From assembly GCA_020853795.1 (NCBI GenBank), contig JADYYF010000052.1, forward strand, positions 1-47,698: a DNA stretch of 47,698 nucleotides, written 5' to 3'. The stretch is from Candidatus Zixiibacteriota bacterium (GTDB lineage: Bacteria; Zixibacteria; MSB-5A5; CAIYYT01). The position numbers and the translations under genes were made by a program. Of this stretch, positions 1 through 34,516 are shown one piece after another (position 1 is the stretch's first letter; each line of letters begins with the position of its first letter). Below the pieces are notes generated by a model. It had not been told where the DNA came from. It ran no database searches and was given only the letters and a program-made list of their open reading frames with translations.

Positions 1-1079
1 CCCATCGGATGCGAGTTGCGGTGGACGTCGGCATGGCAGGTGCGGCACATGGTCATCACGTCGCTGTTCACGAGATACCGCGCATTGTCGGCGCCGTGCG
101 GCGCATGACAACTCGAGCACTCCTGGCCCGGATGCGTCATGTACTTCGGCTTGTCCTTCGCCGGCACGTCGGTGAAGTGGCAGCGCGTGCACAACGTTTG
201 TTGGCTCGAGGCCATCAGAGCGCCGACATTGGAAGCGTGCGGATTGTGGCAGTTGGTGCACGACCGATCGCCATCGATATGCGCGTGAAATTCTGCTTTG
301 CGCGCGCCGGCCTGGTCTTCATGACACTTCAGACAGATATCGGCTACTGAACCGCCAATCGCGAATGACTTGCCGCCGCCGGCGTGGCACTCTGAGCACT
401 CTCCGCTTTCGAACGGCGCATGTTGATTGGCCATCAGCAGCCCGCGGTGCGACGAAGCATGGGGATCATGGCAGGTTGAACAATCGGCATCTGCCAGGTC
501 ATAGCCTTTGTGAACAGTCATGAACTGCTGGTTCTGCGGATGGCAATCAAAGCACAACTGCGGAACGGCCTTGGCCAGAATCCCTTGATGCTCGGATCCG
601 TGCGGCGCATGGCACTGCGAGCAGTTGCGATTCGCCACCGGGGAGTGGACCTGCGCCTGCTTCAGCCAGTCAGCGACCGCCGGGTGGCAACTCTGGCACA
701 GCTCGCCTTGCGACTGCACCAGTTGATTGCGGAAATCGGAGGCGTGCGGATCGTGACACGACAAACACTCGCCGTTTGCGGCGGGTTGGTGCTTCGAAGG
801 TAGCGTGGCGACCTGTTTCAGATCTTCGTGGCAACTCTGACACAATTCGCCTGAATTCTCCTTCAGCAGCGCCGCATGGCGCGACGCATGCGGATTGTGG
901 CAGTCGGAACACTTGCCCTCGGCAAAAGCCGTATGCGGACTCTTCTTCTTCAGTTCAACCTGGATATCGTCGTGGCACGCAAGACACACCCCCGGTTCGT
1001 CGACCTTGACGACTTGCGCAATCAGCGGCGCAGCCGCGGCCAGCACCACGATCATCAGTATCGCAAGACGCGTCTTCAT
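1..1079 (-). CDS. Multiheme c-type cytochrome, at least 14 hemes (3' end off the window)
   Basis: Reading the minus strand from ATG at 1079 gives an open frame to the window edge, about 359 residues. A Sec signal peptide (starts MKTRLAILMIVV, hydrophobic to about residue 22) is followed by 14 CXXCH heme motifs (for example CLACH, CSDCH, CQSCH, CFDCH, CRTCH). Motifs of the type LCxxCH alternate with CxxCHxPH, the pattern of the doubled-CXXCH cytochrome family. The start ATG overlaps the stop of the upstream 26-heme gene (ATGA), and a GGAGG lies about 7 nt upstream, so the two are translationally coupled. It is probably periplasmic or at the outer surface and carries electrons as a heme wire. 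The C-terminus is not seen, so the total heme number and any anchor are unknown. Confidence 0.9.
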   Translation of the reverse strand, partial: MKTRLAILMIVVLAAAAPLIAQVVKVDEPGVCLACHDDIQVELKKKSPHTAFAEGKCSDCHNPHASRHAALLKENSGELCQSCHEDLKQVATLPSKHQPAANGECLSCHDPHASDFRNQLVQSQGELCQSCHPAVADWLKQAQVHSPVANRNCSQCHAPHGSEHQGILAKAVPQLCFDCHPQNQQFMTVHKGYDLADADCSTCHDPHASSHRGLLMANQHAPFESGECSECHAGGGKSFAIGGSVADICLKCHEDQAGARKAEFHAHIDGDRSCTNCHNPHASNVGALMASSQQTLCTRCHFTDVPAKDKPKYMTHPGQECSSCHAPHGADNARYLVNSDVMTMCRTCHADVHRNSHPM

Positions 1080-3052
1080 TCCTTGCCTCCGTTCTGCGGA
1101 GTCTCCGTGTGGCAGGCGTCGCACGCTCCGCCGGAGAACGGTTCATGGCCGTTTTTCAGCATCAAAGTGGCTTCCTTGGCGCCGTGGGGATCATGACACT
1201 TGCGGCAGTCGATCTGGCTGCCCGCCAGTCCCAGGTGCTTGCTCCTGAATTCTTGATCGTCGCCGTCATGGCAGGTCAAGCAGGCCATGGGGACCGGTTC
1301 ACTCAGAAGGGAGGTCAACTCGCTCGTGTGCGGCTTGTGACAACTGCCGCATTCATCCTTCGCCGGAGCGTGCGCGACACCCTTGGTCAAGACTTCGTCG
1401 ATATCTTTGTGGCAGTTCAAGCACAGCCGCGGCTCCTTGTCGAGCAGAAGATTCTTGATCTTACCGGCGTGCGGCTTGTGACAGGCGGCGCAATCTCCGT
1501 TCGTCACTGGTTGATGCATGCTGACGGCATTGGCGTCAATCACGTCGGAATGGCACTCGCCACACAACTGCGCCGGAGCCTGCGTCAACAGCCCCTTGAA
1601 GTTGGTGGCGTGCGGAGCATGGCAGGAACTGCAACTGCCCTCCGCAAAGGGGGGATGGACGACGGTGTTGCTGCTGTCCGCAATTACGGCCTGATGGCAA
1701 CTGCCGCAGAGCCGGTCCGGCGCGGCAGCCAGCAGCGGCTTGATCGCGGCGCCGTGCGGATTGTGGCACTTGGTGCACTCGCCCGCCTTAATCGGCAAAT
1801 GGACGCTGGTCTGTCCCATCCAGCTATTGACATCACTATGACATTCGGTGCACAGGTCACCTTCACTCTTACTCAACAGCTTCTCGTGAACCGACCCATG
1901 CGGAGCGTGGCAGTCCGTGCACAGACCGTCGCTGAACGGCGCGTGTTGGCTGGCGGCCGTCATCAAGGCCCCGAGGTCCGAATGGCAGTCGAGACAAAGG
2001 GTGTTCGTGTCCTTCGTAAGCAGATGCTGTTTGGTCTTACCGTGGGCGGCGTGGCACTGTGCGCAATTCTCCCGAACCGGTTGATGCGCCGACACGCCGG
2101 TCAATTGCGACTGCACATCGTCGTGACACTCCATGCACAGCGCGGATTCCTTCTTTGCCAGCAGCTTTGGTTCGCGCGATCCGTGCGGATTGTGGCACGT
2201 CAGACATTCAGCCTCGGCGACCGGCGGATGACTGCCGGCCGGAGCCACTTCGCCACGGTCATGGCACGACAAACACAACTCGTTCCCGTCACCCTGAAGT
2301 GCGAATGGCTCGCCCGTACCCGGCTCCTGGTGGCACGTTGTGCATTCGCCGCCTTCAACCGGCGCATGGATCGAATTGGCGAACAACTTGGGCGATTCCG
2401 AAGAATGCGGCGAGTGGCATAGCCCGCAATCCTTCGTTTCAACGGCGAAGGCGCCGTGTGCCGTCTTGAAAGCCGGGGCAGTGGGACTGTGACACTCGGC
2501 GCAGAGTTCGCCTTGCCCCTTCTTCAGCAGTGCCGGATGATCGCTGCCGTGAACTTCGTGGCACGCCGAGCAGTCCTGCTTCGCCGGGCTATGGACAAAT
2601 TGCTTCTCGTGCTCCGTGCGGTCGTGACAGGTGAAGCACACCTCGCGGGATTTGGCCACCAGCATCCCGGGCTGATCGCCGGCATGGGGGTTGTGACACT
2701 TGGAACACTCGCCCTGCTTCGCCGGCGCGTGCAAATACGCCCGCTCCATTCCCAGTTCCGTTTTGCTGTGACACTGGTAACACAGGGCCGCTCCCGTTTC
2801 CTTGAGTCGCAACATTCCCACCAGTCCGTGCGGCTTATGGCACGATTGGCAGTCCTTGTCCGCGAACGGCTGGTGCTTGTACTTCCCCTTGAAGTCCCCG
2901 ATTGAATGGCACTCCAGGCAGTTGCCTTCCGCTGAAAATCGCTTGCCGCGCTTGACCTGCGCATTCGCCGTAACCGCCGCTAACACGGCGACCGCCAGCA
3001 CCAGCGCTACGATTCGGCGTCTTTGAATCCTTGCGCGGCGTGTTGCGTCCAT
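1076..3052 (-). CDS. 26-heme c-type cytochrome
   Basis: The protein has 658 residues from ATG at 3052, chosen because it begins a clean signal peptide (MDATRRARIQRRRIVALVL, then a hydrophobic stretch ending in ANAQ) with a GGAG upstream. An in-frame extension to 3127 would run into the preceding gene. I count 26 CXXCH motifs, about one per 25 residues, in a regular unit in which LCxxCH is followed some 20 residues later by CxxCHxPHG. The His in the xPH element is a plausible distal heme ligand, as in doubled-CXXCH families. No other domain is visible, so the chain is essentially a heme scaffold. It follows a parvulin gene and a beta-barrel gene on the same strand, which suggests a periplasmic or surface electron conduit partner. 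Heme count is seen; conduit role is inferred. Confidence 0.93.
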   Translation of the reverse strand: MDATRRARIQRRRIVALVLAVAVLAAVTANAQVKRGKRFSAEGNCLECHSIGDFKGKYKHQPFADKDCQSCHKPHGLVGMLRLKETGAALCYQCHSKTELGMERAYLHAPAKQGECSKCHNPHAGDQPGMLVAKSREVCFTCHDRTEHEKQFVHSPAKQDCSACHEVHGSDHPALLKKGQGELCAECHSPTAPAFKTAHGAFAVETKDCGLCHSPHSSESPKLFANSIHAPVEGGECTTCHQEPGTGEPFALQGDGNELCLSCHDRGEVAPAGSHPPVAEAECLTCHNPHGSREPKLLAKKESALCMECHDDVQSQLTGVSAHQPVRENCAQCHAAHGKTKQHLLTKDTNTLCLDCHSDLGALMTAASQHAPFSDGLCTDCHAPHGSVHEKLLSKSEGDLCTECHSDVNSWMGQTSVHLPIKAGECTKCHNPHGAAIKPLLAAAPDRLCGSCHQAVIADSSNTVVHPPFAEGSCSSCHAPHATNFKGLLTQAPAQLCGECHSDVIDANAVSMHQPVTNGDCAACHKPHAGKIKNLLLDKEPRLCLNCHKDIDEVLTKGVAHAPAKDECGSCHKPHTSELTSLLSEPVPMACLTCHDGDDQEFRSKHLGLAGSQIDCRKCHDPHGAKEATLMLKNGHEPFSGGACDACHTETPQNGGKE

Positions 3053-3098
3053 TCCCGGCTTCACTCCAATCCTCTCAGTCTGCCCGCTCCCGCGTCGT

Positions 3099-4745
3099 CT
3101 AATTCCCGGCGCCGAGATAATTCTCAATCGCCTCGTCGAACAGCACTACGGTAGAATTCGCACGCAACCGCTCCAGCGCCGCATCCAACAATTTCGTAAA
3201 CTTGGCCTGGAACATCGCTTCGCGAATCTTCATCTCAACTTCGTCCATCTTCTTCAGTTCCCCCTGCCGCCGGTCCAGAATCTTGAAGATGACCCACCCA
3301 TCTTCCGTCGGATAAGCCTGCGAACTGCCACCCACCTTGAGCTGCTCGAGATCGGCACGGATCGACGGCGGAAATGCCGCCAACGAAACCCACTGGACCC
3401 GTTCGGCCAGTTCCTTGGCATCTTTGCGGAATCGCCCGGCCACGTATTCGAAATCCGCGCCCTCGCGCAGCAACGCCACCGCGCTATCCGCGGCCGCTGC
3501 CGCCGCCACCGTCACTTCGCGAATGTTGATCTGATCCGGATCGCGAAAATCAGCTTCGTGCTCGCTATAGTACTGCTGAAACTCGTCGTGATTGAATTTG
3601 ATCGCGGCGACAATCGTCTCCTTCAAGTAGATCTCGATCAGCGCGCTGTCGCTCGCTGTGACCAATTGCCGGACTATGCGCTCGTCCGTATCCAACCCGG
3701 CGTCGATACCCGCGCGATAGAGGACGGCTTCCTGCAGCAGTCCGTCCAGCGCCTGATAAAGGAGCGTTGCCACCGGAGCGGTGGCATTCGACATCGCCGT
3801 GTGCGCGGTCGCCTGGCGCAGGCGATTCTCGTCGACTAAAGCCTGGCCGGCGATCGTGGCGACGGGTCGCTCGCTGCCATACTGGAAGGTCGAATCCAGC
3901 ACCGAGGTCGTGTTCGCCACAATCGTCGCGATTGCCCCGCTGTCGATCACGACCGCGTAGCGGTCGCGCAGGCTTCCGACAAACCGCTTCCAGGCCGCCC
4001 CTGCGCTCTGTGTCCGCAGTGCCTCTCTGATCAGGCCTCGTAACGCCGGCAACTCTTCCGGATTCGCCGGCGCGGTATCTTCCACCCGCATGATGGCGCT
4101 CACTTGTCGATAGGGGAACGGACCGATCAGCTGACCTTTGGTCGCACCCTGCAGATAATCGCGCAAGTCCAATTCGACATTGGCCCAATACTTGAACGAG
4201 TGTAGCCCGCCCATATAGCGATGAACGTCCAGCGAGCGCTCTTTGGCCAGGCTGTCCATATCCGCGCCGGCCTTGACCTGCGCCACGAGCGATTCTGCCG
4301 CCGCCACGGTCTCGACCGCGATCGTACGGACCCGCACCTTGTGATAGTTGTCGCGAAAATATGCCGCGATGCTGTCCTCGCCGATACTGTCAATCGGCGG
4401 AAGGTTCTTGCGGACGTAAAGCCGTGACACGAGTTCACGCTTTTGCTCATCCAGAAATTCCCGGAAGTAGTCTTCGTCCGGAATTCCCAATGCCTTGGCC
4501 TCCTGAATGATCAAACGGTCGTTAACGAGCTTCTTCAGCAGTTTGTGGTAGTCAAAGTCGCCCTTCTGGCTGGCGGACATTCCGGAATGAATGCCGGCGA
4601 AGATGGCATCGATATCCGTTGTGAAGATTGAGTCACTGTTGACGACCGCCAGAAGCGCCCGCTCCGGCTGTTCCGCACCGGCGCTGCCCGCAAGCGCTAT
4701 CTTCCAAACTCCAAGTAGAAGTACTATCAATGATCGCGCCGACAT
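3099..4745 (-). CDS. Exported peptidyl-prolyl isomerase with duplicated SurA-N/parvulin units
   Basis: The protein has 548 residues from ATG at 4745 (GAAAGGAAA about 10 nt upstream); an earlier TTG at 4764-4766 would give seven extra residues before the signal peptide. After the signal peptide (cleavage near AGSAGAEQ) comes a SurA-N-like segment beginning LLAVVNSDSIFTTDID, then a parvulin-like segment at about residues 120-225. A second helical segment (around VATIAGQALVDENRL) and a second, better conserved parvulin segment follow, covering about the last 140 residues and including WVSLAAFPPSIRADL and DGWVIFKILD. Parvulins of this type assist folding of secreted or outer-membrane proteins. 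Here it lies between a barrel and two giant cytochromes and probably serves them. The stop is 46 nt upstream of the 26-heme start. Confidence 0.85.
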   Translation of the reverse strand: MSARSLIVLLLGVWKIALAGSAGAEQPERALLAVVNSDSIFTTDIDAIFAGIHSGMSASQKGDFDYHKLLKKLVNDRLIIQEAKALGIPDEDYFREFLDEQKRELVSRLYVRKNLPPIDSIGEDSIAAYFRDNYHKVRVRTIAVETVAAAESLVAQVKAGADMDSLAKERSLDVHRYMGGLHSFKYWANVELDLRDYLQGATKGQLIGPFPYRQVSAIMRVEDTAPANPEELPALRGLIREALRTQSAGAAWKRFVGSLRDRYAVVIDSGAIATIVANTTSVLDSTFQYGSERPVATIAGQALVDENRLRQATAHTAMSNATAPVATLLYQALDGLLQEAVLYRAGIDAGLDTDERIVRQLVTASDSALIEIYLKETIVAAIKFNHDEFQQYYSEHEADFRDPDQINIREVTVAAAAAADSAVALLREGADFEYVAGRFRKDAKELAERVQWVSLAAFPPSIRADLEQLKVGGSSQAYPTEDGWVIFKILDRRQGELKKMDEVEMKIREAMFQAKFTKLLDAALERLRANSTVVLFDEAIENYLGAGN

Positions 4746-4749
4746 GGTT

Positions 4750-5874
4750 TCAGTTTCCTTTCTCAATGCTCGTGGTTCCCGTGCGGCTTGGGCCCAGATC
4801 CCGATGTTCTTCCTCGATTAGCTTGTTGCAAGCGTGGTGAACCGCGGCCAAAGTCAATTCGCCGATTGCATACGTCCGGCCAATACCAAACAGCGTTTCG
4901 GTATCGGCGCCATCGCGAACAACCGATGTTGCCGCAGTCAGCTCGCCGGTCCGCGCGTCGATCATTCTCAGCGTCAGCTCGACATGCGGTCCGATTTCGC
5001 TATCACCGCCTCGGGAGGGAAGGAACTCCGTTACGATGCCGGTGACAATCGTGCCGACGCCAAGCTCGGCCGCCAACACGTCCGGCAGAGGGGCCACGGC
5101 GCCGCCCTGAACATTGATCCCAAGTTTCTGCTGCAACCGTGTCAGCTCGCCGGGTTCCAGCAGTCGATAACCGCGGCGGTGCAATTCATAGATCAGCGCT
5201 CCCGTCGCTGCGGCGCCGGCTCCGGCAAAATCGCAGGCGTTGTCAATCTCCACGACGGCGACACGCCCTCGCGCTGCCAGCGCGCGATCCTTCTTGGCCG
5301 GTTCCTCAATGGCGTCAGACCGCTGCGCAATCAGTTTGGCCGCGTCCTTCAACAACCGGTCGAGCACTTTGCTTGTCAGCGTTTCCACGAAGCTGATCCG
5401 GCCAATGCCGAATGCGCCCGCCTCGCCCTCGCCGCTGAGTGCACAGCGATTCAGCCAGACAATTCCTCCGTCTCTACAGTCGTAGGCGCGCAAATTCACC
5501 GCGACTTCGGGGTTCTCTTGCTCAAGATATAGTTCAATTGCGCCGGTCAGGATTACTTCGGCGCCCGTCGCCGCCGCAATCAGCGCGGCGCTGCTGCTGT
5601 CGCATTCTCCGATCAGCCGGAGACGATGACTGCGCATCAAGCCCCGCAGCGTGTCGGCGGCCACCAAGTCGAATCCCGCCGCCGTCAGCCGGTCGCGCAG
5701 ACTCGCCTCAATCGCCTTTGCCCCTTGCATCGACTCAGAGTAGTTTGCCAGTGGGATCAGCGCCAGTCGCGGCAAGGTCGCGGCGATAGCAGTCGCTGTC
5801 GAAAGCAGAGCCAGCAGACACAAAATCATCAGTTTTGCGGGAATTGCGGAGAATCCAAGTCGGCTCGGCAACAT
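4750..5874 (-). CDS. Exported protein with two CsgG/GNA1162-like domains
   Basis: The protein has 374 residues from ATG at 5874, chosen because it starts a signal peptide (MLPSRLGFSAIPAKLMILCL, cleavage near AIAA). The mature chain has two similar alpha/beta units. One starts LPRLALIPLANYSE and contains LRDRLTAAGFDLVAADTL and ATGAEVILTGAI. The other starts RVAVVEIDNACDF and contains LHRRGYRLLEPGELTRL and LGVGTIVTGIVTEFLP. The pattern of an IP/VE strand, a 'RGY/AGFxLV' strand and a 'G..ILTG' strand is that of CsgG-like and LpoB-like periplasmic proteins. No lipobox Cys is present. It begins 5 nt after the lipoprotein gene and ends 4 nt before the parvulin gene, so it is certainly co-transcribed. 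Function is unproven; a periplasmic assembly or structural role at the outer membrane is a guess. Confidence 0.7.
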   Translation of the reverse strand: MLPSRLGFSAIPAKLMILCLLALLSTATAIAATLPRLALIPLANYSESMQGAKAIEASLRDRLTAAGFDLVAADTLRGLMRSHRLRLIGECDSSSAALIAAATGAEVILTGAIELYLEQENPEVAVNLRAYDCRDGGIVWLNRCALSGEGEAGAFGIGRISFVETLTSKVLDRLLKDAAKLIAQRSDAIEEPAKKDRALAARGRVAVVEIDNACDFAGAGAAATGALIYELHRRGYRLLEPGELTRLQQKLGINVQGGAVAPLPDVLAAELGVGTIVTGIVTEFLPSRGGDSEIGPHVELTLRMIDARTGELTAATSVVRDGADTETLFGIGRTYAIGELTLAAVHHACNKLIEEEHRDLGPSRTGTTSIEKGN

Positions 5875-5879
5875 AGCAG

Positions 5880-6458
5880 CTACTTCACCAGCGTCTTGAT
5901 GACCTTGCGCACGCACTTGCGTGCAACCTCGCTCTGCGATCGCTGGCCGGTTCCGAACAGCGAGGCAAAGAATCCGCGGCTGCCCTCGGTATGTGTCGCC
6001 GACCACACCGTTTGTGCGCTTTCGGTTTCAATCATGCGGACGTCGAGCGTCACGACCGTGCCTTCGTTGGCGGCGGCTCGGGCGCCGGACGACTCGTTAA
6101 CCGTCCCCAGAATAATCCCCTGAACCCCCAGCGCTTGTCCCAGTTGCTTCGCCTGCTCTTCCGTCAACAGATCGAATCGGGTGATATTCATCCGGCTCGT
6201 CGCGCTCAACACCTCGCCCGGCTCGACGATGTCAAAGGCGTCGGTTGCCAGCAGCTCGGTGATGAACAAATGCGTCACGCGTGCGCTCGCACCCTGATCG
6301 TTGGAAAGATTCTCGAACGGCAACACGGCGACCCTCTCGACAAACGCGAAGTTATAGTCGCGGTGAATAAAGACCGTGGAGCCCATTCCGGCACACCCGG
6401 CGATGACACCAATGCCAAGAGCCGCGATCATGACTGCAAGGATTCGAAGCTGTCTCAC
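5880..6458 (-). CDS. Outer-membrane lipoprotein, CsgG/GNA1162-like
   Basis: The protein has 192 residues, starting at GTG 6458 with AAGGG about 11 nt upstream. The N-terminus is a lipoprotein signal with lipobox VIAGC (Cys22), followed by GMGSTV. The mature part has the CsgG-superfamily pattern: FVERVAVLPFENLSND, then ARVTHLFITELLATDAFDIVEP, then LGQALGVQGIILGTVNE, and TLDVRMIETESAQTVWS. Residue +2 after the lipid-modified Cys is Ala, consistent with Lol-dependent transfer to the outer membrane. It lies 14 nt downstream of the beta-barrel gene and 5 nt upstream of the two-domain CsgG-like gene. A role as a small accessory lipoprotein of the barrel complex is inferred from position only. Confidence 0.8.
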   Translation of the reverse strand: MRQLRILAVMIAALGIGVIAGCAGMGSTVFIHRDYNFAFVERVAVLPFENLSNDQGASARVTHLFITELLATDAFDIVEPGEVLSATSRMNITRFDLLTEEQAKQLGQALGVQGIILGTVNESSGARAAANEGTVVTLDVRMIETESAQTVWSATHTEGSRGFFASLFGTGQRSQSEVARKCVRKVIKTLVK

Positions 6459-6472
6459 GGATTAGTACCCTT

Positions 6473-8575
6473 TCAAAGCCCGGTTCTCAGCCCAACGTGT
6501 ACGGATTGGTTCTTGCCCCCGCCCGCCGAAGTCAGATCACTCCGGCTGTACGACCCGGTCAGCACCGTCCGTCCCGAAAAGGCATACTCGACCTGCCCGC
6601 TGTATCGCTCGCTGCGCGAGTCGTTGCCGTTTTCATAATCCGACAGATTGACCGCGGCCGCCGTTGTCAGTTTCCGCGACAGCAGCCAACTGACTGAGTA
6701 ATCTTGATTCAGATATCGGGTGTGGTTGTCGCGCGTCAGATCGACGTTGCCGCGTAACTGGATCGCTGCGGTCAAGCGCAAGCCGAAATCGGCGGTATAC
6801 TGATTGCGATTGCGCACATTACCCGCCTGATCCTTGGTGCGTTGATGAAAGTAGCTGCCTTCGGCATCGAGGCCCGGGATTATCCGGCCGTTCACGGCGG
6901 CGCGATAATTCCAATTGTCGAAGCCGGTATTATTGAGCATGACCGTATTGCGACCGCCTCCAAACTCCTGCGTAATCGTCAGTCGTGGAAAGATTTCTCC
7001 GCGGACGCGCGCCGTCGCAAAGTTCATCTCTTGTGATTTCACGTCGGCAATATAATTGTCCCGATGGGCCAGCGACATCGAAAACGTTAGCGTTTCCAAC
7101 GGCCGATACTGCAGGTCATAATTGGCCGCAAGCGTGCGGTCTACGTCCACACGCGAATATTCGTAATCAATCAATCCGATCTGCACGCGCGCATTTTGGC
7201 TCAAGGCCGCATTAGTCTGATTGTGCAGACCGAAGGTATAGTAAGTCTCGTCGCGACCTTGATTCAAGGAACTGCCTCCATCGCGACGCAACGCGACATT
7301 GGCCGATGCACTCCAATTCTTGCTCAGATTGAGGCTGTTGTTCAATGTTGCCAGATGGACCTGTTGTGTGCGCTTGGCGACTCCCGTTTCGTCCAGACGC
7401 AGCAAAGCGGAGAACTCCGTCACCATCACGCTGTCGATTTCGTTCAAGCCCTGGTTGACGGCTTTGATGTATCGTGTCGCCGTCTCCGGGAAGGTCACTT
7501 CATAGCGGCTGAAGCCCGGGCTGTATTGGGAAGTCGCCCCTGCGATGGCTGTCCACAGCAGGTTGTCCTCGGATCCGTAGATATCCCAACGCACATTGTT
7601 GCCCGAAGGACGATCGGTATAGATATAGAGCAGCGAGACTTCCCGCTGGAATCCCAAATCGCCCCCGATATTCTGGTTCACACGATTGTCGCCGATGTCG
7701 ATGCGCGGCAACGTCGCCGCCGTCAGGTCTCCATCAATCAGGGCGCTGACCGAGTCCAAGCTGCCCTGGTCCGGCGTCGCGTCGCTGGCATAAAGCCCGG
7801 TCAGCACGGGGACCTCGATCGGAATCGGATCAAAGGCCAGGTTCTTGTCTTGTTCATGCTTGTAGGTAAAGTCGTAGCTGACCGTCGTCCGGAGCCGGCC
7901 GCCCATCATCATCTGTAGATGTGAGAATTGCGCCCCCAAAAGATTGTTGGTCTGCTCGACGTGCTGCGACCGGTTCAGCGTCTGCTTGTGCGAGTAGTTG
8001 GAGGTAACAGCCGTCGTCGTACCCGTGTAACCGACTCCAAGCATCGCCAGGCGATCCCGCGTATCCCGATCCTGTCGGTTCGCTTCATTGTAGAGCTTCT
8101 CCTGAAGCAGCCGCAAGCGCACCCAGGGACGGTTGACCACCTGCGAGCGCACGGTCACGCCTGCGCTCTCGTTGATCAGGTGGGTCAGGCGGTCATTGCT
8201 CTTGGAATCGCGGCGCATCACCTGTGCCGCGGCCGCAACCCAGCTTTGCGCCCACGTCATTTCGCCCGACGGCTGAAACTCACTTTGCCACGTGTTGGCG
8301 CCGATGGTCTGACTCAGCCCGAAATTGTAGTAACGGACATTGGCGCGCGTCAGCAGACTGCGCAGGAACCGCTTCTGCCAGCCGACATTGTATTCCTGAT
8401 CAACGCTTTCCTGCGTGTTCTGATCCTGCTTGGTTGATCCATAGCCAAGCCGCAAGTCCGCCGTGAGATTATTCGAGATGCGCCCGTGAGCGGATGGCGA
8501 CAAAATCAGCGCCAACAGCGCCGCCAGAAGCAATCGCTCCGCGGCTCTGACTAAATTGACTCTGCTTTGTCGCAT
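6473..8575 (-). CDS. Outer-membrane beta-barrel protein with discoidin-like insert; candidate electron-conduit porin
   Basis: The protein has 700 residues from ATG at 8575 (GGGAG 8 nt upstream; a GTG at 8584 is less likely). A signal peptide (cleavage near PSAHG) is followed by many alternating amphipathic strands rich in Asn, Arg and Tyr, typical of a large barrel, and the chain ends in strand VHVGLRTGL. Between about residues 255 and 395 the barrel pattern is interrupted by a segment resembling an F5/8-type C (discoidin) domain: ALIDGDLTAAT, REVSLLYIYTD, VRWDIYGSEDNLLWT, YEVTFPETATRYIKAVN. It is the first gene of a tight minus-strand run leading to two giant multiheme cytochromes, so I infer a porin-cytochrome conduit like MtrB or Omb/Ext systems, without clear sequence identity to those families. 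Confidence 0.75.
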   Translation of the reverse strand: MRQSRVNLVRAAERLLLAALLALILSPSAHGRISNNLTADLRLGYGSTKQDQNTQESVDQEYNVGWQKRFLRSLLTRANVRYYNFGLSQTIGANTWQSEFQPSGEMTWAQSWVAAAAQVMRRDSKSNDRLTHLINESAGVTVRSQVVNRPWVRLRLLQEKLYNEANRQDRDTRDRLAMLGVGYTGTTTAVTSNYSHKQTLNRSQHVEQTNNLLGAQFSHLQMMMGGRLRTTVSYDFTYKHEQDKNLAFDPIPIEVPVLTGLYASDATPDQGSLDSVSALIDGDLTAATLPRIDIGDNRVNQNIGGDLGFQREVSLLYIYTDRPSGNNVRWDIYGSEDNLLWTAIAGATSQYSPGFSRYEVTFPETATRYIKAVNQGLNEIDSVMVTEFSALLRLDETGVAKRTQQVHLATLNNSLNLSKNWSASANVALRRDGGSSLNQGRDETYYTFGLHNQTNAALSQNARVQIGLIDYEYSRVDVDRTLAANYDLQYRPLETLTFSMSLAHRDNYIADVKSQEMNFATARVRGEIFPRLTITQEFGGGRNTVMLNNTGFDNWNYRAAVNGRIIPGLDAEGSYFHQRTKDQAGNVRNRNQYTADFGLRLTAAIQLRGNVDLTRDNHTRYLNQDYSVSWLLSRKLTTAAAVNLSDYENGNDSRSERYSGQVEYAFSGRTVLTGSYSRSDLTSAGGGKNQSVHVGLRTGL

Positions 8576-8589
8576 TTCGCTCACTCCCT

Positions 8590-8620
8590 AAAAAACGCCC
8601 GACCTCGCGATCGGGCGTTT
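8590..8620 (-). terminator. Rho-independent terminator of the NHL/OmcS-like operon
   Basis: On the minus strand ACGCCCGA (8618-8611) pairs perfectly with TCGGGCGT (8602-8595) around an 8-nt loop and runs into six T residues (8595-8590). The stem can extend by two A-T pairs using the T tract. It lies about 50 nt after the cytochrome stop at 8672 and directly before the barrel gene start at 8575, so it separates the two transcription units. Confidence 0.85.
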
Positions 8621-8671
8621 GGTTTTGCCCTTGCGGGCTTCGAGGTCACTCATCATGACCCGATTTTTCGA

Positions 8672-9727
8672 TTACGGCTCGAACGGAGCGTCGCCGGCAT
8701 CCTTCGCATGGCACTTGTTGCACAGCGAGCGCTGGTTCAAACTCGGATACGGATTCGGAATCGCATACGATCCGGACTCGACACCGTCTTCGTGCAGGAA
8801 GGTGATGTTGAAGTCCCAACGGCCGGCGTTCTGGGCCGAGGTCGCATGGGCGCGATGACAGGTGATGCAGGTCACCTGGCTGGTCGCCGACGGACCATTG
8901 GTCGAGGTCGTCGTGTTGGTCGGATCTTCAAACGGAACCGCCGCAATGTACGCGGTCGCCTGGGTCCCACCCGTCATGTTGTCGGTGCCGTTGTACAGAT
9001 TGTAGATGTTGGCAATCGTACCGCCAATGGCGCGGCCGGTCGGGTGAATCAGCTTGGTCGCGTTGTTGTGGAAATCGCCGTGGCAATTGCCGCACCACGC
9101 ACCCATGCCGCTCTTGTAAGCAGTGTGCATGACATTGGTCTCAGCCGTATTGTAGCTATTGCCTTCGGCATCCGGAGCCGGAGCCGTGAACGTGGCCAAA
9201 CCGTCTTGGATCGGGCCAACGCCGTTCAGCAAACGGAAATTCTGGTTGCCGTGCGGATCATGGCACGACGTGCAACCCAGTTGGCTGGCCGGGAACGTAC
9301 CGCCCGGGGAAACGAGCAACGTTCCGTCCGGACCGGCACCACGACCAGGAGCATTGATATTGTGACCGGCTGCACGGCCCGGAATCGGGCTGGTCGCGCC
9401 GCCGTGACCGTCATTAATATTGTCCTCAGTCAAGAACACGAAGTTGCCGCCGCCCTTTTCGGCCGGCGGGTTCAACGGATCCGTGCCCCACACTGCACCG
9501 CGGCTGGTGGCATGGCACGACAAGCACAGGTCGCTCGCCGACTGGAACTTCAGCAGGTAGGCGTTTCCGTTCGGATGAGCCGGGTCCACCAGGACGCCGT
9601 TGTTCATATTGTGCATCGTATGGCAACCGCCGCAATACGCCACGCCGCCATCATGGAATGCAAACGCAGTGCTTGACAACAATGCCGCCAACGACATCGA
9701 GACAAGGACTAACAAAAGCTTGCGCAT
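8672..9727 (-). CDS. OmcS/OmcE-like hexaheme cytochrome, predicted extracellular nanowire subunit
   Basis: The protein has 351 residues from ATG at 9727, with GGAGG 8 nt upstream. A Sec signal ends at TAFA, so the mature chain begins FHDGG. There are six CXXCH motifs at precursor residues 32, 68, 152, 212, 287 and 336. From memory of Geobacter OmcS, the match extends well beyond heme motifs: the N-terminus FHxGGVAxCxGCHTMHN, then PGGTFPASQLGCTSCHDPHG, WCGNCHGDFHN, the TIANIYNLY region, TAYIAAVPFED, CHRAHA, and the C-terminal LCNKCHAKD. His16 of the mature protein, which in OmcS ligates a heme of the neighbouring subunit, is conserved at the same position. The mature chain of 328 residues is shorter than OmcS but keeps six hemes. 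It follows the NHL gene by 19 nt and a terminator closes the operon. Polymerisation is predicted, not shown. Confidence 0.9.
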   Translation of the reverse strand: MRKLLLVLVSMSLAALLSSTAFAFHDGGVAYCGGCHTMHNMNNGVLVDPAHPNGNAYLLKFQSASDLCLSCHATSRGAVWGTDPLNPPAEKGGGNFVFLTEDNINDGHGGATSPIPGRAAGHNINAPGRGAGPDGTLLVSPGGTFPASQLGCTSCHDPHGNQNFRLLNGVGPIQDGLATFTAPAPDAEGNSYNTAETNVMHTAYKSGMGAWCGNCHGDFHNNATKLIHPTGRAIGGTIANIYNLYNGTDNMTGGTQATAYIAAVPFEDPTNTTTSTNGPSATSQVTCITCHRAHATSAQNAGRWDFNITFLHEDGVESGSYAIPNPYPSLNQRSLCNKCHAKDAGDAPFEP

Positions 9728-9746
9728 GTAAAAAACCTCCGAAAGA

Positions 9747-10886
9747 CTAATCAGATACAAACGAACGTGAATTCAACAAGGGGGTAGTAAACTCCAGACT
9801 CACCTCCTCCTTCTGCGCTTCGCGCTTCCAAGGCTTAAGGGTTGCTGATGAGGTTGGTTTCGCAAACGACTTCACTTGTTCCGCGATGAACTCCGGCAAC
9901 TCGCACACCTGAACCCGATTAAGAAAAATCTGGCTGACATAAATGCGGCCCAGGTTGTCCACTGCCATGCGCTCCGGATGGTAGAACCACCCCAGCGTAT
10001 TTCCCATCCCGCCGAATTCACCGAGAAATTGACCTGCGGTCGTGAAGCAAACCACGTTGAAACGATGTTTATCGAGAACTAAGACTAAAGCGTGATCGAT
10101 GACGTCCACCGCCGTCGGGAAGTTCAGCTCGCCGATGTTGTTGCCGCGCAGCCCAATCCGCCGCACCAGAGTTCCGGAGAGGTCGTAGACATACACAACG
10201 CCAAACATCGACACGGGCAGGTACAGCAGCTCACCGTCAATCCGCGGCGAGCCCATAACAACTTCCTGGCGCTCTTTCTCGGTCATGTCCGTCACGAGCG
10301 GGAACTCACCCTGATATTTCCCCTCAGCGTCGATCTTGACGATGCGGTCAAACGCGCCGCTCATCAGATAGAGAATGTCCTGACTGTCGATCGCGATGTA
10401 CCGCACGTCAAAAGTGTCGGAGTCAGCGAAATCGATCAGTTCCAGGCGTCCCATCAGCGTGCCGTCGTAGTCAAACTTGAAGACCGACCCGGCGCGCTGC
10501 CGCTGCGTTCCGACGACGTAGATGAATCCGTGCGAATCGACAACCAGATCAGTCGGGCTGCCGAATTCGTCACGCCCCGAGAACTGGAACTTGAAAACTC
10601 CCGAGGTGTCGAAAACCGCCACACGATTATTGCCGGTATCGACAATGAACACTTCATTGAAGCGCTGATCGATGAAGACCTGCTGGGGACGGAGGAGACC
10701 ATTGTTGGTTCCGGGAGGGTCGAGCTTGCGCAGGAACACGGCCGGAACCGACTTCTCAGCCTGCGCCTGCAAACCCGCAGGAAGCAGAACAGCAACGAGA
10801 AATGCCGTTAAGACAACGACGCCCACTAGGGCAGTTATAATCCGGATGTTCTTCCCGATACAACTCTGTCGATTCGTCGCTGGCAA
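9747..10886 (-). CDS. Exported or membrane-anchored NHL-repeat beta-propeller protein
   Basis: The protein has about 379 residues. No ATG is available near the 5' end. I chose TTG at 10886 because GGAG lies 9 nt upstream; a TTG at 10910 would add eight residues and has no ribosome site. A hydrophobic segment (ITALVGVVVLTAFLVAVLL) is a signal peptide or anchor. Six NHL-type blades follow, with recurring 'P..V.VD..G.IYV' and 'N.RV.VFD..G.F...F' patterns, for example FIVDTGNNRVAVFD, SPTDLVVDSHGFIYVV and PERMAVDNLGRIYVS. The blades are followed by a charged 60-residue tail. It directly precedes the OmcS-like gene. My recollection is that NHL genes also neighbour omcS in Geobacter, which would suggest a role in filament assembly or surface attachment. 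Confidence 0.82.
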   Translation of the reverse strand: MPATNRQSCIGKNIRIITALVGVVVLTAFLVAVLLPAGLQAQAEKSVPAVFLRKLDPPGTNNGLLRPQQVFIDQRFNEVFIVDTGNNRVAVFDTSGVFKFQFSGRDEFGSPTDLVVDSHGFIYVVGTQRQRAGSVFKFDYDGTLMGRLELIDFADSDTFDVRYIAIDSQDILYLMSGAFDRIVKIDAEGKYQGEFPLVTDMTEKERQEVVMGSPRIDGELLYLPVSMFGVVYVYDLSGTLVRRIGLRGNNIGELNFPTAVDVIDHALVLVLDKHRFNVVCFTTAGQFLGEFGGMGNTLGWFYHPERMAVDNLGRIYVSQIFLNRVQVCELPEFIAEQVKSFAKPTSSATLKPWKREAQKEEVSLEFTTPLLNSRSFVSD

Positions 10887-10924
10887 TTCGGAAGTCTCCG
10901 CACCCGCCAATTAGCAGGAGTAAA

Positions 10925-10940
10925 TGTGAACTATTTCACA
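10925..10940. promoter_or_regulatory. CRP/HcpR-like operator, site 1
   Basis: TGTGAACTATTTCACA is a perfect 6-bp inverted repeat (TGTGAA/TTCACA) around four bases and fits the TGTGA-N6-TCACA consensus of CRP-family regulators. It differs at one base from the palindrome at 32291-32306. It is only 15-40 bp upstream of the candidate NHL start codons, so it could be a repression site, or it marks a very short leader. Confidence 0.7.
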
Positions 10941-10965
10941 ATCTTCGACAAAAGAAACAAAATTA

Positions 10966-10989
10966 GCCCGAGAACACGAGCTTTCGGGC
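10966..10989 (-). promoter_or_regulatory. Leader hairpin followed by T-rich run; possible attenuator or terminator
   Basis: On the minus strand GCCCGA (10989-10984) pairs with TCGGGC (10971-10966) over a 12-nt loop and is followed by TAATTTTGTTTCTTTTG. It sits between the two CRP-like sites, upstream of the NHL/OmcS-like operon. It could terminate read-through from the heptaheme gene, or act as an attenuator in the operon leader. The stem is short, so confidence is limited. Confidence 0.4.
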
Positions 10990-11015
10990 ACTTCGCCTAA
11001 AGAAAAGTAAACTTG

Positions 11016-11035
11016 TATGTGATTATTTTCACATA
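11016..11035. promoter_or_regulatory. CRP/HcpR-like operator, site 2
   Basis: TATGTGATTATTTTCACATA is an inverted repeat with 7-bp arms (TATGTGA/TCACATA) around six bases, matching TGTGA-N6-TCACA. It lies about 130 bp upstream of the NHL start, a normal distance for an activator site. No clear -10 element is visible at the class II distance. Confidence 0.7.
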
Positions 11036-11302
11036 CTTGCATCGAATACAATCTGAGGTAGTTCGGTAGACTCGTCAAAACAGTAACCTCAAAACCGGAG
11101 CAAAACCAACTCGTTGGGGGGATTATAGAGAAGAAAGACCAAATAGGCAAGGGAAAACTTCGATGATTTTGTAGTTTTTTTCAAATGAAGATCGCTCGAA
11201 GCGGTTCATGATATCGTGAAGAGCGAGTCAGTAGATTGACAGGTGATATCGCTTAGATCAGCTAAGTGAGTGATTAATCACAAAATAGATGGCATTGAAT
11301 AA

Positions 11303-12267: not shown

Positions 12268-12984
12268 TCAGGACAGTTCCGAATCGACTTCGCCGGCAGG
12301 CGTGAACTTGTAGCCGGCGCCGCGCAGGGTATGGATGTAGCGGGGGTTGGCCGGGTCCGGTTCGAAGATCTTGCGCAGGCGCAGGATGAAATTGTCGATG
12401 GTGCGCGAAGAGGGATAAACGTGATAACCCCACACTGCGTCGAGAATCATGTCGCGCGAGACGACCTCGTTGGCGTGTTCGACGAGGAATTTCATCGTCA
12501 TACACTCCTTCTGCGACAATTCCACTTCACCGGTCGGGCCCTTGGCGCGGTACGTACGGAAATCCACCCAGTTCTCCGCAAAATCAAAACGCGAGCGATC
12601 CAATTCCACCGTGCCGTACCAGACCTGGCGACGAAAAATCGCCGATACGCGCAGCAACAGTTCCTGGAGATTGAAGGGCTTGGTTATGTAGTCATCGCCG
12701 CCGCTGAGGAAACCGTCGATGCGATCCGACTGGCGGTCGCGGGCGGTCAAGAACAGCACCGGCAGCCGCCCGCCTTCCTGGCGGATTTCCCTGCAAACGG
12801 TGAGCCCGTCCTTGCCGGGGATCATGATGTCCAGAATGATCAAGTCAAACTGTCCTTTGTGGTAAAGGTCGAGCGCGGCGATCCCGTCGGCCGCGACCGC
12901 AACCTCGTAGCCTTCCGCCTCAAGATTCAGCTGCAGCCCTTCGGCAATGTGCTCTTCGTCTTCGACAACTAATATGCGTTTCAT
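12268..12984 (-). CDS. OmpR/PhoB-family response regulator
   Basis: The protein has 238 residues from ATG at 12984. A receiver domain spans residues 1-120, with acidic pair E8-D9, phospho-acceptor Asp52 (in LIILDIMIPGKDG), a Thr in LFLTARD and Lys in ITKPF. A winged-helix DNA-binding domain spans about 140-230 (LSQKECMTMKFLVEH, VSRDMILDAVWG, RTIDNFILRLRKIFE, HTLRGAGYKF). The start overlaps the stop of the histidine kinase gene (ATGA), so the pair is translationally coupled and certainly cognate. The genes upstream in the same run (surface barrel, kinase-like lipoprotein, PAP2) suggest an envelope or phosphate-related signal, but no target site could be identified. Confidence 0.95.
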   Translation of the reverse strand: MKRILVVEDEEHIAEGLQLNLEAEGYEVAVAADGIAALDLYHKGQFDLIILDIMIPGKDGLTVCREIRQEGGRLPVLFLTARDRQSDRIDGFLSGGDDYITKPFNLQELLLRVSAIFRRQVWYGTVELDRSRFDFAENWVDFRTYRAKGPTGEVELSQKECMTMKFLVEHANEVVSRDMILDAVWGYHVYPSSRTIDNFILRLRKIFEPDPANPRYIHTLRGAGYKFTPAGEVDSELS

Positions 12985-14318
12985 GCAACCTTCTCCAACG
13001 GCAGCCGGATGCGGAAGGTACAACCGCGATCGCGACCCTCTGAGTACAGCTCAACCGTCCCGCCGTGCTCGGTAACGATTTGTTTTACGAGAAATAGGCC
13101 GATGCCGGTTCCTTTGACCGAACGCGTGTTCTCCATACCCGTTCGATAGAAGCGCTCAAAGACCTTCTTCAACTCGTGTTTTTCCACACCAACGCCTTCA
13201 TCCACGAACAGCAATTCGGCTTGATCGCCGCGCCGGCGCGCGCTGATGCTCAGCCGGCGCCGTACCTCCGGCGAGTACTTGATCGCGTTATCGACCAATG
13301 CCGTTACGACTCTCCGTAACGCGTGATAGTCGGTCTTGACGATCAGTTCCTTCTCAAGATCGAGGGTCAACTTCATTTTATGACGGTCGATCAGAGCCTG
13401 CAACCCCTCCAGATACTCGACCAGATCATTCGACAGGTTAGTCTCAACCAGCTTGGCCCGATGGCCGCGCTGGGACAATCGCCCGGCCTCCAGAACGTTG
13501 TCGACCAGCCCTTCCAATCTTTCGCAGTCGTCAAGCATGCGCGGGACGAATCCCTTGATCTTCTCCTGGTCAAATTTGCCGGAGGCCATCGATTCCAGGT
13601 ACAACTTGATCGAAGCCACCGGGATTTTCAGCTCGTGCGTAACCGCATGGATGAAGTTCTCCTGCTGATGCTTCAGGCTCTCCGACTGCCGCAGGGTGCG
13701 ATAGATCATGAAGGCGCCCAATAGCGTCAACAATACGAAGAATGATCCCTCCATGGCGAACATGACGACGCGGCGGCGGGCGCGCTCCTGAACTTCCGCG
13801 GTTACCCCCGCTTTGACACTGAACATCGATGGTTCAAACCACGGATTGCGATACTCGCCCTGCCGCGGCGCGGCCGTGAACTGCAAATCGGCATTCAACT
13901 CCGTCGTAAGCTGCGCAGGATAGGTCGGATCCAGAAAGATCGCGGCCCGATGATTCGCGCCGACGCTCAGGTAGAAGCTGGAATCAACCTCCCCGGAAGT
14001 TATCAGCAGCGCTCCCGTCGGACCGAACAACTGGTAACCTCTCACTGCCGGATCGGCCAGCAACAGGTCGAGTGCTGCCCGCAGATGTCCGATATTATCG
14101 ACGCTGACGAACGATTCCGCCTCATACGCCAGCCGGTCATAGGATCGGTTCAGAATCAGCGAAGCCAGTTGTGCTGCCGCCGCCGTCTGTCGCTCGTGGA
14201 ACTCGATCTGTTCCTTGGAAATCATGACTTGAAAGTACACCCACCAGATGATCTGGCCGATGCAGACAATGACAAGCGCGATGAACAGCGCCAGCGCCAA
14301 CCCCGCCGGACGTGCCAA
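12981..14318 (-). CDS. Sensor histidine kinase
   Basis: The protein has 445 residues if read from TTG at 14318. Two transmembrane helices (about 8-31 and 184-206) flank a periplasmic sensor of about 150 residues with no recognised fold. The catalytic part has HisKA with phospho-acceptor His228 (HAVTHELKIPV), N-box VDNAIKYSP, G1 box FVDEGVGVEKHE, F-box FERFYR and G2 box GTGIGLFLVKQIV. A strong AGGAGG (14344-14349, minus) lies 18-30 nt before the TTG, too far for it, but ideally placed for ATT at 14336-14334. That would add six residues in frame (IRIKHR before the L of the TTG), a natural cationic start. The stop overlaps the response regulator start. Confidence 0.93.
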   Translation of the reverse strand: MARPAGLALALFIALVIVCIGQIIWWVYFQVMISKEQIEFHERQTAAAAQLASLILNRSYDRLAYEAESFVSVDNIGHLRAALDLLLADPAVRGYQLFGPTGALLITSGEVDSSFYLSVGANHRAAIFLDPTYPAQLTTELNADLQFTAAPRQGEYRNPWFEPSMFSVKAGVTAEVQERARRRVVMFAMEGSFFVLLTLLGAFMIYRTLRQSESLKHQQENFIHAVTHELKIPVASIKLYLESMASGKFDQEKIKGFVPRMLDDCERLEGLVDNVLEAGRLSQRGHRAKLVETNLSNDLVEYLEGLQALIDRHKMKLTLDLEKELIVKTDYHALRRVVTALVDNAIKYSPEVRRRLSISARRRGDQAELLFVDEGVGVEKHELKKVFERFYRTGMENTRSVKGTGIGLFLVKQIVTEHGGTVELYSEGRDRGCTFRIRLPLEKVA

Positions 14319-24644: not shown

Positions 24645-24661
24645 TATTTGCGGTTGGTGTG

Positions 24662-25108
24662 ATGCTGACGACGATCGAAAAAGTGATTCTGTTGCAGGCG
24701 GTGGATGTCTTCGCCGATGTACCCACGGCCAATCTGGCCTATATCGCCGCCATTGCCGAAGAGGTCAGCTTCGCGGCCGGTACGACAATCTTCAGCGAAG
24801 GTGATCCGGCGACGGCCATGTTCTTCGTCCTCGACGGCCGCGTCAGTCTGCAGCGCGACGGCAACGAAATTGCCGTGGCGGAAGCCAACCAGGGTTTCGG
24901 CGTCTGGGCACTGTTCGACGAAGAGCGGCGCGTGGTCACCGCCACCACCGTCACCACTGTGCGCCTGTTGCGGATCGAAAGTGAGAGCTTTGCCGAAATC
25001 CTTGCCGACCACGCCGAAATCGCCCAGTTCCTCCTCAAGACCCTGACGCGGCGGCTGCGCAGCATTATGGAGCGCCTGCAACTGGAGCATGGCCGCCGTC
25101 CGGCTTGA
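24662..25108 (+). CDS. Cyclic-nucleotide-binding-fold protein (CRP-like effector domain, no HTH)
   Basis: The protein has 148 residues from ATG at 24662; a GTG codon lies directly before it. It is a single cNMP-binding fold: VDVFADVPTANLAYIAA, FSEGDPATAMFFVLDGRVSL, then the position of the phosphate-binding cassette FGVWALFDEERRVVTATT, and the final helix. The usual Glu of the FGExALL cassette and the Arg of R(S/A)A are not in the standard places (VWALFDEERR), so binding of cAMP or cGMP is doubtful. It has no DNA-binding domain and so is not the regulator of the CRP-like sites in this window. As part of the transporter-HEAT run it may gate or regulate that transporter. Confidence 0.82.
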   Translation: MLTTIEKVILLQAVDVFADVPTANLAYIAAIAEEVSFAAGTTIFSEGDPATAMFFVLDGRVSLQRDGNEIAVAEANQGFGVWALFDEERRVVTATTVTTVRLLRIESESFAEILADHAEIAQFLLKTLTRRLRSIMERLQLEHGRRPA

Positions 25109-25143
25109 CATTTGCCCCGTCAAGCATTACCAATTCAAACGGA

Positions 25144-26370
25144 ATGTCGAAGGATAAGGCTGATATCAAGAACCCAGTTAATCCACCTTCGGTCATGATT
25201 GTGGATGACGAGGAAATCGTCCTGACCAGCCTGCAGTCGTTGCTGCGGCTGGACACCGACTATCGCGTCGTCACTTTTCGCTCGCCCGTCGAGGCGCTGG
25301 CGGAGCTGCAGAAACATCCGGTTGACGCCGTCATCTCCGATTTTCTGATGCCGCAAATGAACGGCCTGCAATTCCTCGCCGAGGTCAAGCGCCTGTATCC
25401 CTCCGTGCCGCGCATCCTGCTGACCGGCTATGCCGACAAGGGCAACGCAATTAATGCCATCAATGAAGTGGGTCTGTATCAGTACATCGAGAAGCCATGG
25501 GACAACGATCACATCAAGCTGGTGCTGCGCAATAGCCTGGCGACGAAGTCGCTGGAGGAGACACTGCAACAGAAATTGCGCGAGCTGGACGAGGTGCTGC
25601 GCCATCGCGATGCCCTCGCCACCCGCGAAGGGATGCTGCGGCAGGAGCTCGATCTGGCGCGACAGGTGCAACAAAACCTGCTGCCGCGGCGACTTCCGGA
25701 GGCCAACGGATTGCGCATTGCCGCCAAGTACGAGCCGGTGCTCGAAATCGGCGGCGACTACTACGATATTCAGGAACTCGACGAGAGTCGGCTCGGGATC
25801 CTGGTTGCCGATGCCACCGGCCACGGCATCCAGGCGGCACTCAGTACGGCGTTGCTCAAATTCGCGTTCAGTACGTTGATCAAATCCGGTCAATCGCTGC
25901 CGGAAATCGTTACCGGCATGAATGAGATCCTGGGGCGCGGCCTGCCGGAAAATTCCTTTGTCGCGGCGATCGTCGCGATTCTGGACAAACGGCAGAAGTC
26001 GGTCGAGATCATCAACGCCGGGCTGCCGCATCCGCTGATCTGGCGGCGCGCCGCCACCACAGTCGAGCGGGTCGCCGCCAACGGGTTGTTCCTCGGCATC
26101 GACCTGCCCCTGAGCTACTGCGCCAGCGAAGCGACCACCGTCTCGCTCGGGCCGGGTGATCGTTTACTGCTGTACAGCGACGGCCTCAGCGAAGTGCCCG
26201 GCCGGGACGGCCGCTTCTTCGGCGATGCCACCATGATCGAGGAAATCGAACGACACGCCGCCACTCCACTGGAACAACTGCTCGATTGGCTGCTGCAGTC
26301 CTCGCGCGAGTTCTGCGACGGCTCGCAGGAACCTGACGACACAACCATTGTTGCAATAGAGACAATTTGA
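25144..26370 (+). CDS. Response regulator with PP2C-type (RsbU/SpoIIE) phosphatase output
   Basis: The protein has 408 residues from ATG at 25144; a TTG at 25105 overlapping the previous stop is the alternative. The receiver (about 15-135) has VDDEE, phospho-acceptor Asp in VISDFLMPQMNG, Thr in LLTGYAD and Lys in IEKPWD. A coiled coil (about 140-185) leads into a SpoIIE/PP2C domain (about 200-405) with metal ligands in IGGDYYD, LVADATGHG, LLLYSDGLSE and PDDTTIVA. Such proteins dephosphorylate anti-sigma-factor antagonists or similar partners when the receiver is phosphorylated. No anti-sigma factor or antagonist is encoded nearby. Its receiver is strikingly similar to that of the next gene. 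Confidence 0.93.
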   Translation: MSKDKADIKNPVNPPSVMIVDDEEIVLTSLQSLLRLDTDYRVVTFRSPVEALAELQKHPVDAVISDFLMPQMNGLQFLAEVKRLYPSVPRILLTGYADKGNAINAINEVGLYQYIEKPWDNDHIKLVLRNSLATKSLEETLQQKLRELDEVLRHRDALATREGMLRQELDLARQVQQNLLPRRLPEANGLRIAAKYEPVLEIGGDYYDIQELDESRLGILVADATGHGIQAALSTALLKFAFSTLIKSGQSLPEIVTGMNEILGRGLPENSFVAAIVAILDKRQKSVEIINAGLPHPLIWRRAATTVERVAANGLFLGIDLPLSYCASEATTVSLGPGDRLLLYSDGLSEVPGRDGRFFGDATMIEEIERHAATPLEQLLDWLLQSSREFCDGSQEPDDTTIVAIETI

Positions 26371-26389: not shown

Positions 26390-26893
26390 ATGTCGAATAC
26401 TGCCAAAGATTCTTCCGCTCTCGATAAACGCGAGACCATCGTTATCGTCGATGACGAGGAGATGGTCATTACCAGCCTGAGCTCCTTCCTGAGTCTGGAA
26501 ACGGAATACAACGTCAAAGCTTTCACTTCCGTGCAACAGGCGCTCGAATTCATCGGCGCCAATGATGTCGATCTCGTCATGTCCGACTATCTGATGCCGG
26601 AGATGGACGGCATCACGTTTCTGGCCAAGGTCCGCGACCTCAAACCGCAGGTACCGCGCATTATCCTGACCGGCTACGCCGACAAGGAGAACGCCATCAA
26701 AGCAATCAACGAGGTCGGCCTGTTCCAGTACCTGGAAAAGCCGTGGGATAACGACGATATCCTCATTGTCCTGCGCAACGGCCTCGAACGCAACAAGCTG
26801 ATGAAAAAGCTGCAGGAAAAGATCGACGAGATCAACCGCGCCTATGCCGAACTTCAGGTGCTGCAGCGCGAAATCGTCAAAGCGTTCGTCTGA
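26390..26893 (+). CDS. Stand-alone response regulator (RpfG-type receiver)
   Basis: The protein has 167 residues from ATG at 26390, 19 nt after the phosphatase gene. It is a receiver domain (VDDEEMV, Asp in LVMSDYLMPEMDG, Thr in IILTGYAD, Lys in LEKPWDNDD) followed by a C-terminal coiled coil of about 30 residues and no output domain. The stretch VPRIILTGYADKENAIKAIN is nearly the same as in the preceding PP2C regulator, so the pair looks like a duplication. It may compete for phosphate or act as a single-domain adaptor for the large hybrid kinase encoded upstream. Confidence 0.9.
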   Translation: MSNTAKDSSALDKRETIVIVDDEEMVITSLSSFLSLETEYNVKAFTSVQQALEFIGANDVDLVMSDYLMPEMDGITFLAKVRDLKPQVPRIILTGYADKENAIKAINEVGLFQYLEKPWDNDDILIVLRNGLERNKLMKKLQEKIDEINRAYAELQVLQREIVKAFV

Positions 26894-29994: not shown

Positions 29995-30208
29995 CCGCAC
30001 TCCGAGAACTAATCGGCACCTCATCGCATCCTAACCGAGAGGCGCCATTCTTCTTGCGGATATGGTTGAACGTTACACCAGCGCAAAACCCGCACGTATG
30101 CTTCTCCGCGAGCTCCCGGCGACCTCGCCGCTCAAGAATCTCCGGGTGCCGCGCGCATCCACTCGATTTCGATTTGTGACCCAAGTTGCGAACCAAGAAA
30201 GGAAAATT

Positions 30209-32081: not shown

Positions 32082-32290
32082 TCGCCATTATTGGACAAAT
32101 TCCGATAGCTTTTGACGTCTTTCAAGGTTCATTCTTTACCCTCCAAATCTGATACTATTTGTTATATTTTTCACGATCTGAGCCGATAGACACTAATAGC
32201 AAAATAGGATGATTTGTCTACTTTTTGCTTGACATTGATATGCCCAGAAGCTATTTATGCGAGCAGAAACAGGAGAAGAAGCGCCGATCA

Positions 32291-34499: not shown

Positions 34500-34516
34500 T
34501 GAAAGGACTCAGTTTC

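Follow-up and report, generated by a model that had tools for sequence, protein, structure and literature searches.

The window, by which the whole analysed stretch of 47,698 nucleotides is meant, carries two palindromes upstream of a putative nanowire operon, and thus raises the question of which protein recognizes them and what that protein senses. An earlier note described the palindromes as lying 75 bp apart, and both are indeed present: the extended form of the second begins at about 11016, which leaves 75 bp to the first, and their centres are 93 bp apart. The note proposed that they are bound by a protein of the CRP/FNR family sensing cAMP, redox state or NO. A third palindrome ends 50 bp before an operon for a 4Fe-4S protein, an NrfD-like subunit and a multihaem cytochrome, and the HmcB/HybA-like gene has its ATG 66 bp after the start of this palindrome (Table 1). 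The analysis summarized below indicates that the palindromes are very probably operators of Rex, the repressor that senses NADH/NAD+, through which it would control the filament and HmcB/NrfD operons.

Table 1. Positions of the features discussed in the text
Feature	Position	Strand	Basis or remark
Remaining collinear gene run	1076-8584	-	Order and spacing
DmsE/GSU2203-like multihaem cytochrome	1076-3127	-	
PpiC-like protein	3099-4766	-	Assigned from sequence only
Two smaller exported proteins	within 1076-8584	-	Export predicted from the sequence alone
703-aa protein of no known family	6473-8584	-	
OmcS-like hexahaem cytochrome (six CxxCH)	8672-9760	-	PDB 6ef8 (OmcS), E 2.5e-39
NHL beta-propeller exported protein	9747-10910	-	Pfam NHL; first gene of the nanowire operon
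Proposed Rex operator 1, TGTGAACTATTTCACA	10925-10940	.	26.9 bits; followed at about 39-54 bp by the probable NHL start
Hairpin with U-rich 3' arm, between operators	10955-10998	-	-18.4 kcal/mol, z -2.6; terminator-like match
Proposed Rex operator 2, core TGTGATTATTTTCACA	11018-11033	.	19.6 bits; extended palindrome to 11015-11036
Candidate promoter, TTGCCT-17-TATAAT	11122-11150	-	10/12; upstream of both operators; chance expectation about 0.9 matches of this quality
Stand-alone protein with a cNMP-binding domain and no HTH	24659-25108		
Response-regulator-type proteins	25105-26370, 26390-26893		Beside the preceding protein
Secreted 654-aa protein	30062-32026		Just upstream of palindrome 3
Degenerate Rex-like site, TGTTATATTTTTCACG	32160-32175		12.8 bits; 131 bp upstream of palindrome 3
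Proposed Rex operator 3, TGTGAATTATTTCACA	32291-32306	.	31.1 bits
Quinol-dehydrogenase-type operon	32357-35665	+	HmcB/HybA-like 4Fe-4S protein, NrfD/HmcC-like membrane subunit, multihaem c3/c7-type cytochrome

The pattern TGTGAN4-6TCACA is found three times in the window against 0.11 expected, a number reached in none of 100 shuffles. The genome scanned is a 3.56-Mb draft, 99.9% complete, of which the window lies on contig C52; TGTGAN6TCACA occurs in it at 13 sites, against none for the reversed control pattern. Most of the 13 have the form TGTGAA-N4-TTCACA or are one base off, and the three palindromes of the window fit this core at 12 of 12 positions (10925 and 32291) or 11 of 12 (11018). 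The 117 genomes of the class contain, in sum, 406 copies of the exact core, versus 7 of the reversed pattern. That the palindromes are fortuitous, or act as RNA-level hairpins without a DNA-binding protein, is scarcely credible given these numbers, even though extended palindrome 2 also scores as a terminator-like stem. It is the sequence itself, beyond mere pairing, that is conserved, and an RNA hairpin was rejected as the main function on the ground that this conservation extends across loci of unrelated context. The note had likewise judged a chance origin very unlikely. Sites equally frequent inside genes, which it regarded as damaging to a regulatory role, are not what the genome displays: 12 of the 13 are upstream of genes, and the single intragenic one scores below 9 bits.

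The motif alone could not decide between Rex and a CRP- or HcpR-type protein, because Rex sites have been described as identical to those of HcpR1 (PMC5701242), and both regulators were therefore tested. TGTGA-N6-TCACA is the consensus of both E. coli CRP and Desulfovibrio HcpR1 (PMC5701242), which speaks for a CRP, HcpR or FNR protein that would respond to cAMP, NO or redox, bind the palindromes and activate the filament operon. In the same sense, a single Crp-type HTH in the genome exceeds the cut-off, that of the one Crp/Fnr protein, on contig C79, and a site is present in the divergent region between its gene and iorA. Such an activator nevertheless appears highly improbable. CRP-like HcpR specificity is recognized by R-E-R at positions 1, 2 and 6 of the recognition helix (PMC5701242), and the helix of the C79 protein reads SETLSR, with the first Arg missing. 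Genes of this type are linked to another box: at SETLSR-type loci a perfect FNR/DNR box, TTGAYN4RTCAA, adjoins the gene in 19 of 20 cases versus 1 for the reversed control, and TGTGAN6TCACA is found in 2 of 20. The SETLSR protein and its box thus constitute, as judged from this association, a separate FNR/DNR-type circuit, and the C79 protein is predicted to bind TTGACTTAAATCAA and not the palindrome fragments. The distribution of the sites also argues against this family. G058 encodes neither a Crp HTH over the cut-off nor any cNMP-binding domain, yet perfect sites precede both its electron-export operons; G011 similarly has sites and neither of these domains; and G101, in which Crp is present and Rex absent, has no sites. 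Finally, the sites lie at or downstream of predicted promoters, a position that favours a repressor over a CRP-type activator. A CRP/FNR gene with a matching helix, put forward in the note as a check on its proposal, was thus not found in the genome; redox control survives from that proposal as sensing of NADH/NAD+ by Rex, while the CRP/FNR/HcpR protein, cAMP and NO are unsupported. The FNR/DNR box is at L018:1736-1749 in this genome (L093-L119 in relatives), where the neighbouring gene encodes a membrane protein of ferredoxin type that is NapH/CcoG-like by eye. As for the cNMP-binding-domain protein of the window, it cannot itself be the DNA-binding protein since it lacks an HTH.

One Rex, with a winged helix and an NAD(H) Rossmann domain, is encoded in the genome (contig C169:228-878; NF003995, 264 bits; PDB 3wg9, E 1.9e-45). 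Both this gene and that of the C79 protein are outside the window, in agreement with the note, which had stated that the regulator is not encoded in it. The residues that match the DNA contacts of T. maritima Rex are kept (Arg12, Ser33, Gln46, Arg48, Lys49, Ser52, Gly58, Arg60, Gly61 and Tyr64), as is the one that matches its NAD contact Tyr100; the positions of T. maritima Lys43 and Asp191 seem to be occupied by Thr and Asn. Directly upstream of the genome's own rex is a perfect site, TGTGAAAGCTTTCACA, and the motif precedes rex in 29 of 30 loci, comprising this genome's and those of 29 relatives, as is characteristic of autoregulation. At the rex loci the core mostly follows a TTGACA-17-TATAAT-like promoter by a few bp, which corresponds to the geometry of a repressor. 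The 28 operator copies found in relatives within 150 bp of rex were used, with this genome excluded, to build a matrix. Applied to the window, this matrix ranked 32291 first, 10925 second and 11018 third, followed by a site at 12.8 bits; about 0.017 places at 19.6 bits or more are expected per window.

Genomes of family f2 encode Rex and contain no exact TGTGAAN4TTCACA. They were considered as a counter-example and set aside, as rex is preceded in two of them, G028 and G054, by a variant operator, (A/C)GTGAA-N4-TTCACG. The operator has drifted in these genomes to CGTGAATGAATTCACG / AGTGAATGAATTCACG (L288:190-230 region; L286), and in other members of the family no palindrome was seen in the rex stretch examined. 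It is possible that Rex and its operator have co-evolved in this family.

The genes downstream of the first two palindromes belong to a run (1076-10910) whose order and spacing suggest co-transcription. The cytochrome encoded by its second gene is of the OmcS type, with six CxxCH motifs and homology along most of its length, and its haem motifs are invariant in 14 homologues. Its closest named records are from Candidatus Zixiibacteriota and neighbouring uncultured phyla, and most of the OmcS homologues found belong to bacteria known only from metagenomes. The NHL gene probably starts at a TTG at 10886, with GGAG upstream.

In relatives, a site of at least 15 bits was found upstream of NHL-OmcS in 10 of 12 genomes, and an eleventh has one of 11.9 bits; the reversed matrix gave none and column-permuted matrices a mean of 0.12. 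No site precedes this operon in G008, which has Rex. Such conservation, together with the homology to OmcS, bears out the view of the note that regulatory sites stand before an OmcS-like nanowire operon. The HmcB/NrfD operon is preceded by a site of at least 14 bits at 26 of 29 loci, mostly 57-72 bp before the start codon, and the controls gave none. The exceptions include G085 and G070, both of which have Rex, and G005, which has neither Rex nor Crp and was found to be devoid of sites, before its HmcB operon as elsewhere. The whole arrangement is found in G058, a genome that is 100% complete: Rex with a rex operator, TGTGAAAGGGTTCACA before NHL-OmcS and a 31.6-bit site before the HmcB operon. 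In several relatives, a weak second site similar to the degenerate one upstream of palindrome 3 is found about 100 bp further upstream than the main site and ends with CTCTTGA or CACTTGA. On the other hand, most OmcS homologues from other phyla have no site, with sites found at 6 of 64 loci. Control by Rex as a general property of OmcS homologues was rejected on this basis, and the wiring of the filament to Rex is, as far as the distribution of sites indicates, limited to this group of lineages.

The note had suggested a genome-wide scan for redox genes downstream of the sites, and these proved to be strongly enriched. Pattern searches identified at least the following targets. Among the matches listed, exact or Rex-type sites precede rex, nuoA, gltA, sucC and the genes for malic enzyme, acetyl-CoA synthetase and glutamate dehydrogenase, as well as a kor-like cluster, iorA and glnA; cydA (16 bits) and a nuoE-like gene (11 bits) have weaker scores. 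The electron-export targets among the matches listed also include a DmsE-like decahaem cytochrome operon and a further multihaem protein. The motif is therefore found upstream of genes for NADH metabolism, respiration and central carbon metabolism, and the kor and ior ketoacid:ferredoxin oxidoreductases are among those that it precedes. As read from these sites, the target set is the published profile of Rex, widened by electron-export genes.

How Rex would act depends on where transcription starts. The promoter of the nanowire operon is likely to be at 11150-11122, in a scan for which about 0.9 promoter and about 0.5 terminator matches are expected by chance, and both operators would then be in the leader. 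Consensus matches in several relatives likewise put the sites downstream of promoter-like sequences. The hairpin between the operators may be the terminator of the upstream cytochrome gene, an attenuator or a leader structure. These features are compatible with a refinement of control by Rex, namely that Rex is one input among others and perhaps acts differently at operators 1 and 2, the other inputs being an OmpR-type two-component system (12268-14318) or the hairpin acting as an attenuator. Genes for a response regulator and a histidine kinase lie immediately upstream in the same orientation, the hairpin has a z of -2.6, and the number and spacing of the sites vary among relatives, from one to three that are 39 bp apart in one family. 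However, a binding site for the response regulator was not identified, and we regard such additional inputs as a tentative proposal, somewhat less probable than their absence. The 39-bp arrays consist of two or three Rex-type sites upstream of NHL (L067, L068 and L069), with a spacing of exactly 13 codons or 3.7 turns. Read in frame, they would give a C-E-x-x-H peptide repeat with which an extended ORF begins; a coding repeat was considered and rejected, as the likely signal peptides begin later, which makes operators in a leader the better reading of the arrays.

We infer that Rex physically binds its operators, represses the two operons and responds to NADH, and that the cytochrome forms a filament. 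When NAD+ is high, a Rex dimer would bind TGTGAA-N4-TTCACA and block the NHL-OmcS filament operon via two sites and the HmcB/NrfD/cytochrome operon via one, by roadblock or by occlusion, with operators at or downstream of the predicted promoters. A scarcity of electron acceptors would raise NADH and make Rex leave the DNA, so that the cell would produce the exit at the inner membrane and the cytochrome wire on the outside alongside the products of nuo, cydA and the TCA genes. This model suggests that the bacterium builds cytochrome wires when its internal electrons exceed its disposal capacity.

Much of this regulation has precedents. The published Rex operator is TTGTGAAW4TTCACAA, which Rex binds more tightly with NAD+ and leaves with NADH (PMC2883068). 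The operators of Staphylococcus aureus and Streptomyces avermitilis, known as ROP, have the same inverted repeat, TTGTGAA-N4-TTCACAA (PMC2883068; PMC5355995), and are located inside or downstream of promoters. In S. avermitilis the targets include nuo, cydA and rex, classes that are found again here, and an operator downstream of the start site has been footprinted at cydA1 (PMC5355995). In contrast with these two systems, the predicted regulon of the present genome, from an uncultured Zixibacteria-type lineage, adds the OmcS-like filament, HmcB/NrfD/cytochrome and decahaem cytochrome operons, and its core is flanked by A or T. A Rex from a Gram-negative anaerobe, DVU_0916 of Desulfovibrio vulgaris, is cited in PMC5701242 as binding sites identical to those of HcpR1, the ambiguity that misled the earlier note; the target named for it there is sulfate adenylyltransferase, unlike the targets found here. 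The five-base half-sites and their spacing are shared with HcpR1 and E. coli CRP. Unlike in those systems, no protein with an R-E-R helix was found in the genome, and the conserved A/T beside the half-site (TGTGAA) is the form typical of Rex. The hexahaem cytochrome is homologous to OmcS of Geobacter sulfurreducens, and the filament is putative here; the physiological role of OmcS filaments is disputed (PMC11077965).

While Rex and its operator are well known, the nanowire target appears to be unreported in the open-licence literature, in which no link between Rex and omcS or OmcS-type filaments was found. For one group, the Rex operators provide a testable answer to the question of what triggers cytochrome-filament expression, that wires are made when NADH accumulates, since operators of a known NADH sensor precede the genes of the wire as well as those of its likely feeder in the inner membrane. 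It is reasonably probable that, in Zixibacteria and related uncultured lineages, the electron-export line as a whole, made up of an inner-membrane quinol dehydrogenase and a cytochrome wire outside the cell, is switched directly by NADH/NAD+ via Rex in concert with complex I, cytochrome bd and the TCA cycle, and that nanowires are an outlet for NADH overflow. When TGTGA-N6-TCACA palindromes are encountered in such genomes, the presence of Rex should be checked before the sites are assigned to CRP or HcpR. Finally, the secreted 654-aa protein encoded just upstream of palindrome 3 carries at its C-terminus two repeats (GDADCSG..SISDAVYLINYIFAGG) that, judged by eye, resemble dockerin.
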